A stretch of DNA of 64,000 nt from assembly GCA_003435055.1 (NCBI GenBank), contig QUMM01000012.1, positions 16,009-80,008 of the forward strand. Direction: 5' to 3'. The position numbers and the translations under genes were made by a program. The notes beneath the pieces are model-generated. The model did not search any database. It was given only the letters and a program-made list of their open reading frames with translations, and was not told the DNA's origin. Below, in pieces: positions 15,324 through 64,000 of this stretch. This stretch comes from Lachnospiraceae bacterium OF09-6 (lineage in GTDB: Bacteria > Bacillota > Clostridia > Lachnospirales > Lachnospiraceae). Numbering within the stretch: position 1 is the first letter of the stretch; each line of letters opens with the position of its first letter.

Positions 15324-15517
15324 GATGTCGGGGTCAAAAGCCCCCGACGTTGATGCCTACGGATTGTTTCGTGCTATGCACTCCCACAATCCTACCCAAT
15401 ATTCGCATATCGTGGGACTATCATCCCACTTTTATGCTCATATCGGGGCGGGTCCCAAGGACTTTCACCCACCTATGAGCAAGCTCATGTGGGTTTAGAC
15501 CTTTTGACCCTGGCATC
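15324..15517. mobile_element. 194-bp MITE-like structured repeat with terminal inverted repeats
   Basis: Ends GATGTCGGGGTCAAAAG (15324-15340) and CTTTTGACCCTGGCATC (15501-15517) are inverted repeats matching at 15 of 17 positions. Inside are several hairpins: GTCGGGG/CCCCGAC at the left end, GTGGGA/TCCCAC in the middle, and ACCCAC...ATGAGC-AA-GCTCAT...GTGGGT at the right. No reading frame of note. Visibly richer in G and C than the flanks. Sits between a terminator and the tepA-like gene in otherwise non-coding sequence, flanked by AT-rich sequence but without an unambiguous target duplication. A non-autonomous element or a structured RNA are both possible. Confidence 0.6.
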
Positions 15518-15544
15518 TTTATATACAAGAATGTGAGGTATGTC

Positions 15545-60504: not shown

Positions 60505-62388
60505 GTGCGCCCGGCGGCGCACGTTTCTAACGGGTGCAAGTCCCGAATCCGCCCGGTAGTGGGAAGGATATAGCCGAAGGCAAGGGTGTCCATCGTGAGG
60601 TGGAATCTGAAGGAAGCCGGATGTGGGAACAGACTAACCACGGGCAAATCTCTGGTCTGACGAACAGAAATCACATATAAGGTTTCGCATGAGGGTAAGA
60701 TTGCGTAACAAATCGAAGCCCAATAACTACACGGAATTATGCGGAATAAATGTGGCAGATAGATGGAGAGAAAGAAACGTGTGGTACCCGGGGAGATCTG
60801 TGCGGAATGCTTTGAAAGAAGTAACCATTGCCCAAAGCAGTGCTGAACGTACAGAAGTCAGCAGAGGTCATAGTAGCCGAGAGGTGAAGGATCGAATCAA
60901 TAGGAGTCTTAAGTATGACCCGGAAAGGAGAAATGAGCAGATGGATGCAGAAAACAAGGAAAGCTGCTTGCAAAGAGATAGCGCGGAACGTAAAGGGTAT
61001 GTAAGAGCGCACCGTTCATTTAACCGGATATGGAAAGAAAGAGACAGTGCAGAGCCGGATATCTTAGGTAAGATACTGAATAAGGACAACCTCAACAGAG
61101 CTTACAAGAGAGTGAAGGCAAACAAGGGAGCGCCGGGAGTAGATGGAATGACCGTTGAAGAGGCGTTTCTGTGGCTAAGGGAACACAGCCATGAACTGAC
61201 GGAGAGAATAAGAAAAGGGCATTATACCCCATCTCCTGTCAGAAGAGCGGAGATTCCAAAGCCAGATGGCAGAGTACGAAAGCTCGGTATTCCGACCGTC
61301 ATAGACCGCATCATCCAACAGGCAATGTCACAACAGCTGATACCGATCTATGAGCCGAAGTTTTCAGATGGAAGTTTTGGATACCGTCCGGGACGAAGTG
61401 CGAAAGACGCAGTTCAGAAGATAAAGGAGTATGCAGAACAGGGATATACAAGAGCTGTGGTTCTTGACTTGTCAAAGTATTTCGATACACTGAACCATGA
61501 ATTACTGGTAAATATCCTGCGCAGAGATGTAAAGGACGAAAGGGTGATTCAGATGATAAAGAGGTATTTAAGAAGTGGAGTGATGGAAAACGGTGTAGTC
61601 GTTAAGACGGAAGAAGGTTCGCCGCAGGGAGGAAATCTCTCCCCGCTATTAGCCAATGTTTATCTTAACGAGTTTGACCAGGAGTTCAACAAAAGAGGAG
61701 TGCCGTGCATTCGCTATGCAGATGATATCGTACTGTTAGCGAAGAGTGAGCGGGCATCTGAGAGATTGAAATATCTGGAAGGGACACTGAAACTAAAGGT
61801 GAACCGGGAGAAAAGTCGTACGGTCAGCGTGTTTGCAATACGAAATTTTAAGTACCTTGGCTTCTGTTTCGGGAAGAACGGAAAAGGAATCTATGTCCGT
61901 GTTCATGGAAAGTCATGGAAGAAAGCCAAGGACAACCTGCGAAAGCTCACTTCCCGGAGTAAGTGCGGAAGTATAGTAAAGACTATGGAACATATAAAAG
62001 AATACATGCGTGGATGGTTGAACTATTACAGTATAGCAGACATGAAGAACAACATCGAAGGCCTGAATGGATGGCTGTACAGAAGGATACGGATGTGTAT
62101 CTGGAAACAGTGGAAACTGCCAAAGACGCGAAAACGGAAGCTGATAGGACTGGGAATGCCAGAATGGGTAGCAAGTAAAGGAGCCTACAGTCGAAAGTCC
62201 TATTGGAGAATGGCAGGGAGCGGTGTACTAAACAGAGCCCTAACAAAAGAAAGACTGATAAACTGGGGCTTTTATGATTTAGCCACAGCCTATCAGTCCA
62301 TGCACGTCAACTATTGAAACCGCCGTGTACCGAACGGTACGCACGGTGGTGTGAGAGGACGGCGGTTAGTCACCGCCTCCTACTCTAT
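60505..62388 (+). mobile_element. Bacterial class C group II intron
   Basis: The 5' end GTGCGCC begins right after TTTTTTAC of a terminator; the first hairpin is GTGCGCC/GGCGCAC. The 3' end shows domain V (CCGCCGTGTACCG...CGGTACGCACGGTGG with GTGAGAGG) and domain VI (GGCGG...CCGCC with an unpaired A), finishing CTACTCTAT. The encoded reverse transcriptase lies in domain IV. Class C introns lack an endonuclease and home to terminator hairpins, which explains this site. The 3' exon begins TGCAATC. No frame interruption is seen in the intron, unlike in the host genes. Confidence 0.88.
60941..62317 (+). CDS. Group II intron reverse transcriptase/maturase
   Basis: 458 residues from ATG 60941, chosen because AGGAG lies ten bases upstream and because sequence before it belongs to ribozyme domains I-IV, although the frame is open from 60689. 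Reverse transcriptase blocks: KRVKANKGAPGVDGMTVEE, IPKPDGRVRKLGIPTVIDRI, FGYRPGRSAKDA, VLDLSKYFDTLNHELL, GSPQGGNLSPLLANVYLNEF and catalytic IRYADDIVLLA. The maturase/thumb region has EYMRGWLNYYSIADMK. No HNH endonuclease domain, as expected for class C. Confidence 0.95.
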   Translation: MDAENKESCLQRDSAERKGYVRAHRSFNRIWKERDSAEPDILGKILNKDNLNRAYKRVKANKGAPGVDGMTVEEAFLWLREHSHELTERIRKGHYTPSPVRRAEIPKPDGRVRKLGIPTVIDRIIQQAMSQQLIPIYEPKFSDGSFGYRPGRSAKDAVQKIKEYAEQGYTRAVVLDLSKYFDTLNHELLVNILRRDVKDERVIQMIKRYLRSGVMENGVVVKTEEGSPQGGNLSPLLANVYLNEFDQEFNKRGVPCIRYADDIVLLAKSERASERLKYLEGTLKLKVNREKSRTVSVFAIRNFKYLGFCFGKNGKGIYVRVHGKSWKKAKDNLRKLTSRSKCGSIVKTMEHIKEYMRGWLNYYSIADMKNNIEGLNGWLYRRIRMCIWKQWKLPKTRKRKLIGLGMPEWVASKGAYSRKSYWRMAGSGVLNRALTKERLINWGFYDLATAYQSMHVNY

Positions 62389-62407: not shown

Positions 62408-63466
62408 CTAATCTTCCCTGAGGCGTACTGCAGAGGCAGCTTTGCGGCGTCTCTGGTCATCCATGGCAGCATAATGCTTTTTGGTGGTATTGACGTCCTT
62501 ATGGCCCAGAACATCAGCTACCAGATAGATATCACCGGTTTCCTGATAAAGGGCGGTACCATAGGTGCTTCGCAGTTTGTGTGGTGTAATTTTTTTTGTT
62601 CCTGTAATCTGAGAAGCATATTTTTTTACCAGATTTTCTACCGCCTTAATGCCGATTCGTTTGCGCTGGGTAGAGAGAAACAGCGCATTTTCATGGCCTG
62701 TAATTGGTGTGATGCCTTCCCGTACCGCCAGATAATCCCGCAGAGTAGCTTCTACTTCCTCACCAAAATAAACAATCATTTCATTTCCGCCTTTTCGGAC
62801 AACTTTAATTCCATTATTTTTAAAATCTACATCATTCAAATCCAGTCCCACGCATTCCGATACACGAATTCCAGTTCCAAGTAAAAGGGTAATCAATGCC
62901 AGATCACGAACTTTTGTCTTTTCCCAGTAGACTTTTTTCTGGCCGGTCAGTTCATCACCGCCATGTTCGATAAAATCCAGCAGCATAGCCGTTTCATCCG
63001 CATCCAGACGAATAATAGCCTTATCATGAATCTTTGGCATGTCAACCAATACGGATGGATTGGTCTGAATCATTTCATGCTTATAATAGTAAGCGTAGAA
63101 CCCTCTGAGAGCCACCATTTTGCGTTTTAAGGCACGTTCACCGTTCGTGTGAAGATTTTCCCGGTCACCGTATACTTTTAAGTATTCCAGGTATTCCTCG
63201 ATGTCCAGAGCCTTGATCTGATCCAGAACGGATACCTGAATATCAGATATCGATTTACCTTTCAATGCAGGATTCTCATTTAAGAGAAACTGAAAAAACA
63301 CACGAATGTCATACGCATAAGAAATCCTGGTTCGTGTAGATGTGGTCGGTTCAATGGCCCGGAAATAATCCTTTGCAAAAGGCGGAAGCGTTTTCAGAAT
63401 TTCCCGTAAACGTAAGGTATTGTCAATGTCAGTTTGCTCATGGTATGTCATAGATGTCTGATCCAT
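62408..63466 (-). CDS. Tyrosine recombinase, XerS-like
   Basis: 352 residues. N-terminal core-binding domain (about 20-155), then the catalytic domain: LLLGTGIRVSECVGLDLNDV (first Arg), KVVRKGGNEM (Lys), ITPHKLRSTYGTALYQETGD (HxxR), and LGHKDVNTTKKHYAAMD (His and nucleophile Tyr). Length and single-gene context resemble XerS of streptococci (about 356 residues) more than XerC/XerD (about 300). It could be the chromosome-dimer resolvase of this organism or an element integrase; no element genes surround it. GGAAAGGA precedes the ATG on the minus strand. A dif-like dyad lies about 33 bases upstream. Confidence 0.85.
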   Translation of the reverse strand: MDQTSMTYHEQTDIDNTLRLREILKTLPPFAKDYFRAIEPTTSTRTRISYAYDIRVFFQFLLNENPALKGKSISDIQVSVLDQIKALDIEEYLEYLKVYGDRENLHTNGERALKRKMVALRGFYAYYYKHEMIQTNPSVLVDMPKIHDKAIIRLDADETAMLLDFIEHGGDELTGQKKVYWEKTKVRDLALITLLLGTGIRVSECVGLDLNDVDFKNNGIKVVRKGGNEMIVYFGEEVEATLRDYLAVREGITPITGHENALFLSTQRKRIGIKAVENLVKKYASQITGTKKITPHKLRSTYGTALYQETGDIYLVADVLGHKDVNTTKKHYAAMDDQRRRKAASAVRLRED

Positions 63467-63498
63467 AAATATAAAAGTTCCTTTCCGAATTACTATTC

Positions 63499-63532
63499 AT
63501 CTATTCGTTAAACTATGGTTTGTCGAATAGAT
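63499..63532. promoter_or_regulatory. 34-bp dyad, candidate dif site or recombinase operator
   Basis: Outer arms ATCTATTCG (63499-63507) and CGAATAGAT (63524-63532) are perfect inverted repeats; inside them AAAC-TATG-GTTT is a second perfect dyad. The size and two-arm layout suit a tyrosine recombinase site (two arms of 11-14 bases around a 6-8-base centre). It lies just downstream of the recombinase's own -10, between promoter and start codon. Confidence 0.6.
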
Positions 63533-63541
63533 ATGTAGAAT

Positions 63542-63570
63542 ATTATATCATCTTCTCAGACACATGACAA
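63542..63570 (-). promoter_or_regulatory. Recombinase promoter
   Basis: Minus strand TTGTCA (63570-63565), 17 bases, TATAAT (63547-63542). The transcript should start a few bases before the dyad at 63499-63532. The -35 box lies inside the end of the truncated Abi-type reading frame. Confidence 0.8.
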
Positions 63571-63684
63571 GTCTGCTGTTGTCATTATATGAATTGCTGC
63601 TGGAACATCTGAGATGGTCAATTGCTTTTCCTTCTGCAATTTCTCAATTTGCTGATCATATGTAAGAAATTTTTTCTCCATCAT
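63556..63684 (-). pseudogene. Truncated Abi_2 (AbiD/AbiF-like) abortive-infection gene
   Basis: 42-codon frame, too short to be a complete family member. It begins MMEKKFLTYDQQIEKLQKEK, then QLTISDVPAAIH, which has the look of an Abi_2-family N-terminus (a short helix of the KxFLTYxQQIxKL type followed by a 'IISD' turn). After about residue 32 the likeness ends and the frame runs into the recombinase promoter and stops. TAGGAGAA lies upstream of the ATG, so translation may still start. A full gene would need some 250-300 further residues. Confidence 0.6.
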
Positions 63685-63701
63685 ATATTCTCCTATATAC
63701 T

Positions 63702-63728
63702 AAGAAAAGGAGCCCACGCATGAGCTCC
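63702..63728 (-). terminator. Terminator ending the small RNA
   Basis: Eight-pair stem with a TGCG tetraloop and a T-rich tail on the minus strand, 18 bases before the Abi-type start codon; transcription must read through it for the protein gene to be expressed. Confidence 0.85.
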
Positions 63729-63768
63729 TCCGGCTACGGGCCCCTCAAGCATCCGTAGCACAACCACT
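63702..63768 (-). ncRNA. Small structured RNA upstream of the Abi-type frame
   Basis: Predicted transcript of about 67 nt. Hairpin 1: GCTACGG (63759-63753) pairs with CCGTAGC (63739-63733) around a 13-base loop. Hairpin 2: GGAGCTCA-TGCG-TGGGCTCC (63728-63709) with one G-T pair, followed by TTTTCTT, an intrinsic terminator. A near-consensus promoter lies seven bases ahead of the start. Promoter, structured RNA, terminator, then an Abi-type gene is the architecture of RNA-protein abortive-infection loci (the AbiF-associated RNA motif and, by analogy, type III toxin-antitoxin). Whether it belongs to the described AbiF RNA motif cannot be decided without a covariance search. Confidence 0.6.
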
Positions 63769-63818
63769 AAAGATAATATACCGGATTAAGTCCAGAATGT
63801 CAATTTATTTTTAGTGGT
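63763..63818. repeat. 14-bp inverted repeats enclosing the small-RNA promoter
   Basis: ACCACTAAAGATAA (63763-63776) and TTATTTTTAGTGGT (63805-63818) are inverted repeats with 13 of 14 matches, 28 bases apart. They bracket the promoter, with one arm over the transcription start and -10. The layout is that of an invertible promoter or of a two-site operator. Confidence 0.6.
63775..63803 (-). promoter_or_regulatory. Strong promoter of the small RNA
   Basis: Minus strand TTGACA (63803-63798), exactly 17 bases, TATATT (63780-63775). Confidence 0.8.
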
Positions 63819-64000
63819 ACTTCTAATTTATTCAGCTGACAAATATTTATGCATGTCTTATATTACACTATTCCTTTTCATAAAAGCGGTATAATAACTA
63901 AGGAATTATTCTTTCCAGCTGGTACTAATTTACCATCTTTGCTTAAATCCTTCTATTTGAATCACTTTCACTTAAATCAACACTATTTTACCATTTTACT
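63819..64000. other. AT-rich sequence without a recognised feature
   Basis: Read on both strands; all frames contain frequent stops, and no RNA structure or repeat with the rest of the window was noticed. It may be the promoter region or decayed remains of an element beyond the edge. Confidence 0.5.

Follow-up and report, generated by a model that had tools for sequence, protein, structure and literature searches.

A two-hairpin RNA family linked to Abi_2/AbiF genes, with a solitary member beside a gene remnant

The RNA locus and its surroundings

Near one end of the window, by which we mean the whole 64,000-nt stretch of DNA that was analyzed, the minus strand carries a promoter, a small RNA with two hairpins and the remnant of an Abi_2/AbiF gene, followed by a gene for a tyrosine recombinase. 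The RNA matches a model, R1, built from 43 aligned RNAs. The features of the locus are the following.

63798–63803, minus strand: −35 hexamer TTGACA of the RNA promoter, read from the sequence, with similar promoters in most relatives
63775–63780, minus strand: −10 hexamer TATATT, 6 nt 5′ of the RNA, read from the sequence, with similar promoters in relatives
63702–63768, minus strand: 67-nt two-hairpin RNA, matching R1 positions 1–67 (85.4 bits, E = 1.2e-21, with the window among the 43 training sequences)
63733–63759, minus strand: hairpin 1, with a 7-bp stem (GCTACGG/CCGTAGC) and a conserved CUYGNG loop segment, from the RNA alignment
63702–63730, minus strand: hairpin 2, an intrinsic terminator with loop segment CATGCGTG and tail TTTTCTT, from sequence and alignment
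63690–63694, minus strand: ribosome-binding site AGGAG, from the sequence
63556–63684, minus strand: 42-codon remnant of an Abi_2/AbiF gene, with ATG at 63684 and homology over residues 2–35
63499–63532, minus strand: 34-bp imperfect inverted repeat 5′ of the recombinase gene, with conservation at 20 of 27 related loci
62408–63466, minus strand: downstream neighbor, a tyrosine recombinase gene, XerS-like but below the XerS cut-off in the domain search

The promoter (TTGACA-17 nt-TATATT) agrees with the consensus at 11 of 12 positions, and on its own it does not rise above chance, as 2 kb of sequence contain four promoter-like sites against 5.6 in shuffled versions. The 69-nt stretch 63700–63768 is predicted to fold into the two hairpins with a minimum free energy of −28.4 kcal/mol and a z-score of only −1.82, which is mildly unusual, and the window RNA forms all 18 pairs of the R1 model; real support for the structure comes from covariation, described below, rather than from the folding energy of a single sequence. 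By sequence, hairpin 2 has a stem of at least 8 bp, a 4-nt loop and the TTTTCTT tail, and it was not among the calls of a simple terminator scan.

The remnant ORF starts 17 nt past the end of the RNA. Its residues 2–35 align to positions 1–34 of our own Abi_2/AbiF profile (29.7 bits, E = 3.4e-8 in a search of the window), it matches the PADLOC AbiD model (E = 1.1e-4), and phmmer against 120 listed homologues gives a best E of 1.8e-10. The stub has no match to Abi_2 (PF07751) in Pfam; in the intact relative at locus L024 (Blautia schinkii) the Pfam match starts at residue 32. Matches of the stub to DeaD_dimer and ORF56 lie below cut-off. The rest of the protein of ~310 residues, including its HEPN motif, is absent from the stub, and a profile search of the 64-kb window found no second Abi_2 stretch (next best E = 0.44). 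A tblastn search of phages and plasmids with the stub gave no match.

The first-pass annotation had described a promoter and a two-hairpin RNA with its own terminator 5′ of a cut-off Abi-type ORF. Sequence, covariation and relatives all bear out the arrangement, and the ORF is indeed truncated, with about 35 residues kept; the truncation lies inside the window, not at its edge. The pairing of a truncated gene with an intact promoter and RNA is true of this locus and recurs across the RNA family. The order typical of type III toxin-antitoxin systems, with RNA, terminator and toxin gene following one another 5′ to 3′, is present, with a stub of residues 2–35 in place of a functional endoribonuclease toxin and a single RNA copy in place of ToxI-like tandem repeats.

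The stub ends near the 34-bp inverted repeat at 63499–63532, which we take to resemble a dif-type recombination site. The recombinase stretch has DNA matches in 256 of 299 genomes, and the ones inspected fall within the recombinase gene; the sequence common to the xer loci of relatives begins at about 63532–63545. Because the RNA was not found at any of the 22 related recombinase loci searched, RNA and stub appear to have been inserted locally, next to a conserved gene. Elsewhere in the window, a group II intron with a reverse transcriptase/maturase occupies 60589–62317 on the plus strand, and a Clostridiales-1 RNA (RF01699) lies at 15351–15518 on the minus strand (149.8 bits).

The R1 family and its linkage to Abi_2 genes

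Among 50,697 phage records, a DNA search for distant relatives matched one, MT835668, in which the RNA lies 5′ of an intact Abi_2 gene and a second copy lies 3′ of it; the protein encoded there has 1896 homologues at E ≤ 1e-3. Matches in plasmids were weak (E of 0.2 or worse). The first viral scans gave no match, and the alignment-based scans that came after them produced 48 genome loci and 10 viral loci, with the RNA within 130 nt 5′ of the gene in most.

Covariation was assessed in 43 aligned RNAs, with identical ones removed and the window included, over 18 pairs and 765 cells. Paired nucleotides occupy 96.7% of these cells, against 40–52% in slid controls, and double changes occur in 13 of the 18 pairs, amounting to 70 cells against 14.5 in shuffles, a level that none of 500 shuffles reached. 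An alignment of 74 R1 hits, which was fitted to the model and includes the loci used for building it, contains 248 double-change cells against 74.3 in shuffles. Compensatory changes in the hairpins are plentiful in both alignments. The alignment runs the full length of the RNAs, broken only by a small insertion in L056 and gaps of one base, and conservation of hairpin 1, of its loop and of the 5′ leader equals that of the terminator.

Our genome sample comprised 299 genomes of the family of Blautia schinkii (genome G003, the source of L024), taken by inference to be the Lachnospiraceae. R1 hits at E ≤ 0.01 are found in 63 of them, 52 of which have a hit of at least 43 bits; in a phylum-wide sample, three of 299 genomes have a hit at E ≤ 1e-4, all three being members of the family sample as well. 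The genome scan gave 86 hits, of which 70 score at least 43 bits, and the 16 below 40 bits, including L141, L142 and the second hit in L108, were kept out of the counts. The weak hit in L142 lies 5′ of an ORF resembling prolyl-tRNA synthetase and is presumably a T-box, and for this reason weak R1 hits were not trusted.

The RNA had initially been related to the published abiF motif, an identification that did not survive. That motif (RF03085) is likewise a small structured RNA reported 5′ of Abi_2/AbiF genes, but it comprises 37 positions and its sequence is unlike that of R1. RF03085 has no match at E ≤ 10 in window positions 63400–64000 (gathering score 37 bits), and R1 was not found at the 12 RF03085 loci searched (best score 12.2 bits); we rejected membership of the window RNA in RF03085, as neither model finds the loci of the other in the searches made. 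In the same 299 genomes RF03085 occurs in 6 above its cut-off and in 21 at E ≤ 0.01, never at R1 places, and the comparison with R1 (63 vs 21; 52 vs 6) favors the latter, which was built from the same family in a sample centered on a carrier. R1 is absent from Rfam 15, and the Rfam matches obtained for the window were weak hits, mostly to snoRNA families and also to miRNA and lncRNA families, and were rejected. The window RNA genuinely belongs to a family of AbiF-antitoxin-type RNAs, and neither an R1-type family nor the tRNA-array copies considered below are described among the matches listed in the open-licence literature.

The link between this RNA and Abi_2 genes is firm. Among 59 loci collected through protein and phage matches, without removal of duplicates, the Abi_2 gene is intact at 44, meaning that a single frame covers at least 285 profile positions, and the RNA lies upstream in 40 of these, so that the suggested association of a structured RNA with abi genes holds in all but four cases. 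The proteins at these four (L046, L047, L058 and L059) share about 30% identity with the query, and L046 has almost no upstream sequence to search. Where the gene is not intact the RNA is present at 12 of 15 loci, namely 11 of the 12 with a recognized 5′ end of the gene, and L035; the 5′ end is missing in L042 and L043, and in L049 it is present and the RNA absent.

From the perspective of the RNA, an intact Abi_2 gene follows 31 of the 70 genome hits that score 43 bits or more, which supplies intact copies with full-length genes elsewhere in the family; another two lie 3′ of such a gene, one is at a contig edge, and 15 accompany a gene that is broken or a relic (by visual judgment in L076 and L088). 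For the remaining 21, no Abi_2 was detected in the flanking sequence searched, which spans several kb in most loci. Solitary copies are therefore common: at 36 of 70 hits the searched flank has either a broken Abi_2 gene or no such gene. The distance from RNA end to Abi_2 match is 14–130 nt in the 31 intact copies and 14–57 nt in 29 of them. Promoters with at least 9 of 12 matches, scored as the best match in a short stretch and without a shuffled control, accompany 28 of 31 copies with intact genes, 13 of 15 with broken genes and 13 of 21 with none; beside intact genes the promoter has a 17-nt spacer and ends 6–7 nt 5′ of the RNA (28/31). Pairing in the three classes is 96.9, 96.7 and 95.4%, figures for which the model itself selects and in which the intact class includes the second hits of L063 and L108.

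RNA and protein distances are correlated across 62 loci (Mantel r = 0.83, 0/2000), which may reflect just linked or shared inheritance. The fifth RNA base is G in all 32 loci whose protein is at least 54% identical to that of L001, and A in all 30 loci at 47% identity or less. The phage tRNA-array RNAs described below resemble those of the second identity group, of which L104 is an example.

At several loci a second RNA copy lies 3′ of the abi gene in the same direction (L001:1322-1389, L002:4994-5061, L003:6576-6643, L009:2959-3026, L018:4501-4564 and L020:1249-1315), 35–82 nt past the gene, or 1639 nt in L003. These second copies start with TATGG where the first start with AGTGG, and by eye most are without a good promoter. 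Solitary RNAs could arise if the two copies recombined. In L116:248-382 two tandem copies lie 5′ of an intact Abi_2 gene, an arrangement recalling the repeat antitoxins of type III systems that was seen only there among the loci searched with R1. In two further genomes, an RNA without a good promoter (L067:1501-1567 and L073:1501-1567) lies 5′ of an operon whose second ORF resembles, by eye, a zeta-type toxin; the two RNAs are identical at 61 of 67 positions, counted by eye, and the surrounding 882-nt block at 88.7%.

The intact proteins of relatives appear to be HEPN ribonuclease-like toxins of the AbiF type (Abi_2), judging from their own relatives. The L024 protein matches Pfam Abi_2 (PF07751) with 167 bits, and RN.CAH, an instance of the RxxxxH HEPN motif, is invariant in the alignment of intact proteins. 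Their sole match by sequence in the PDB is 8vz6, the PbAbiF dimer bound to its ncRNA (E = 9e-18), in which the R and H are aligned, and the same entry is the sole significant fold match of the predicted L024 structure (pLDDT 92.1; E = 9.6e-10).

RNA copies in phages

Pattern scans of viral contigs followed by R1 identified 15 strong viral loci and a weak one, L219, with five partial hits of 16–20 bits left out of the count. Abi_2 adjoins the RNA in seven of the strong loci, six of them on contigs from the alignment-based scan, and was not detected in the other eight (L200, L218, L233, L225, L230, L232, L223 and L224). A search for PF07751 over ten whole viral records, these eight together with L236 and L237, gave none in ten where R1 gave eight; the records may be fragments, the longest having 170,146 bases, and the Pfam search included no positive viral control. 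Our own profile detects Abi_2 in viral loci L216, L241 and L242 and has no match in the stretches of the ten records to which it was applied.

In five of these records, which represent two diverged phage types, the RNA is located directly between tRNA-Met and tRNA-Arg, at the following places.

L225:2474-2540, first phage type: RNA, R1 match
L230:5228-5294, first phage type: RNA, R1 match
L232:4092-4158, first phage type: RNA, R1 match
L218:202-268, second phage type: RNA, R1 match
L233:5598-5664, second phage type: RNA, R1 match
L225, minus strand, the array: tRNA-Met 2541-2617, RNA 2474-2540, tRNA-Arg 2395-2471

The RNA lies 0–4 nt from tRNA-Met and 2 nt from tRNA-Arg, and tRNA processing would therefore release it. 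Between the two phage types the RNA is identical at 61 of 67 positions, whereas tRNA-Met is 62.7%, tRNA-Arg 63.2%, tRNA-Thr 63.2% and tRNA-Ala 68.4% identical; the HU-like gene reaches 75.1%, the start of the exonuclease gene 76.4%, tRNA-Asp 93.5% and tRNA-Asn 100%. The six differences comprise one A-U/G-C swap (positions 13 and 33), a change of one partner at each of positions 31 and 55 that leaves the pair intact, one loop base and one tail base. Both hairpins are kept, and the U-tract is lost (ATTATT, ATCATT). A cis-acting attenuator would not be kept at such a site, and a trans-acting structured RNA could be.

R1 has no match in L236 and L237, which are related phages by their exonuclease and have tRNA arrays, nor in the phage regions L243 and L244, and the phage-type RNA likewise had no match among 50,697 phage records and 72,556 plasmid records. 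Database matches to the surroundings of this RNA cover part only and are mostly tRNA genes by the annotations listed. Most relatives of the exonuclease come from phages of Firmicutes (216 records). The phrog_284 exonucleases of the two types (L233:6135-7367 and L232:4630-5847) are 76% identical over the N-terminal 330 nt and 45% over the remainder, as if the catalytic part had been exchanged.

Among the other viral copies without abi, L223 and L224 have a promoter (by eye) and the RNA beside an ORF pair resembling RelE/Phd (by eye), and the genome locus L122, one of the 21 without Abi_2, has the same RNA as L223. In L200 a holin gene and an exonuclease gene flank the RNA. An RF03085 abiF RNA has been reported from cyanophage S-CREM1 (excerpt of PMC9964418).

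A probable antitoxin role and the meaning of solitary copies

ToxIN resembles the R1-Abi_2 loci in that an RNA antitoxin is paired with a toxin, and a terminator lies between the two. ToxI is a pseudoknot RNA made of tandem repeats, and ToxN does not belong to the HEPN proteins, whereas R1 RNAs have two hairpins and usually occur in one copy (two in L116), and some of their viral copies lie in tRNA arrays. A closer counterpart is RCd22-AbiFCd of the Clostridioides difficile prophage phi027, in which, according to the parts of PMC12373285 consulted, the RNA neutralizes the toxin in cis and in trans and the mRNA arises by read-through. Those parts describe, as at R1 loci, a SigA promoter, a short structured RNA and a Rho-independent terminator, followed by an Abi_2/AbiF gene whose product has the HEPN RNase motif. 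The main form of RCd22 is 98 nt long (132 nt in full), with two RF03085 motifs and a separate terminator (PMC12373285, same parts), whereas the window RNA is 67 nt long, has two unlike hairpins of which the second is the terminator, has no RF03085 match, and precedes a stub. PbAbiF is reported to bind one ncRNA per monomer, with an antitoxin role (Zilberzwige-Tal 2025, as relayed in excerpts of PMC12804078, PMC12737573 and PMC12373285). It is the only significant solved relative of the intact proteins (8vz6), a likeness at the protein level with 20% identity to the L024 model in the fold alignment, and the absence of recognizable sequence common to R1 and RF03085 means that the mode of binding is not transferable.

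We consider it likely that the 67-nt R1 RNAs, a family centered on the Lachnospiraceae, are antitoxins of AbiF-type toxins and that the window copy became solitary after toxin loss; the antitoxin function itself we infer strongly. The steps proposed are modeled on PbAbiF and the AbiF of C. difficile. One promoter would yield mostly the short RNA, since hairpin 2 would terminate transcription, and occasional read-through past this hairpin would yield the toxin mRNA, so that the terminator would set the ratio of RNA to mRNA; the RNA would then bind and block the AbiF toxin. In the window, reduction of the toxin gene to a 42-codon stub would have left the RNA solitary. With no toxin in the window, the module cannot work as a toxin-antitoxin pair, and any action would have to come from the RNA alone. 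This RNA probably continues to be transcribed and might in principle bind AbiF arriving from elsewhere, although its expression and usefulness are matters that we infer only. The viral copies without detected Abi_2 make neutralization more credible than it would be from the window alone. As a family of this kind, R1 would widen the known antitoxin side of AbiF systems beyond Rfam.

Whether the window RNA is instead a neutral fossil, the toxin having been deleted recently and the RNA having yet to decay, is a question on which we see even chances. Young pseudogenes would account for the intact RNA at 11 of 12 broken genes with a recognized 5′ end (12 of 15 overall), a good promoter is missing from eight of the 21 copies without Abi_2 nearby, and the RNAs of L067 and L073, at 61/67 by eye, are hardly above the 88.7% of their block. 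The window promoter and all 18 model pairs are nevertheless intact, and solitary copies recur in many genomes and in viral records, although detection by the model favors intact copies.

It is improbable that the RNA serves purely as an attenuator in cis, with hairpin 2 limiting abi transcription and with no antitoxin activity in trans. In 29 of the 31 copies beside intact genes the terminator hairpin ends 14–57 nt 5′ of the Abi_2 match, which would suit such a role, but hairpin 1, the loop and the 5′ leader are conserved as much as the terminator, further RNA copies lie 3′ of some abi genes, and the viral copies in tRNA arrays have neither a U-tract nor a detected abi gene to attenuate; the C. 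difficile counterpart, moreover, is reported to act in both ways (excerpts of PMC12373285). A guide-like RNA of an RNA-guided nuclease is far less probable still: AbiF toxins and their RNAs are proposed ancestors of CRISPR-Cas13 (excerpts of PMC12165695 and PMC12737573), yet R1 RNAs align over their whole length with no variable spacer-like segment. That promoter and hairpins coincide by chance, as the promoter scan and the folding z-score would permit, is scarcely conceivable in view of the covariation, the Abi_2 linkage, the relatives found both by DNA and by protein, and the R1 match at E = 1.2e-21, even with the window in the training set.

If R1 RNAs are antitoxins, as we favor, the solitary phage RNAs might be decoys against AbiF that are released by tRNA processing, and the bacterial solitary copies leftovers or retained shields against incoming AbiF modules, a reading to which we give an even chance of being right. 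Were it true, solitary bacterial copies, including that of the window, would be the host-side counterpart. Solitary copies thereby pose a testable question, namely how phages escape AbiF and whether an RNA mimic suffices. RNA anti-CRISPRs offer a further parallel to the phage R1 copies. These copies also parallel pseudo-ToxI of phage phiTE, described in an excerpt of PMC3475682 as an antitoxin-like RNA by which a phage can escape the toxin, and a DNA region of lactococcal phage sk1 protects phage 712 from AbiF, according to the title of a reference in PMC12737573.
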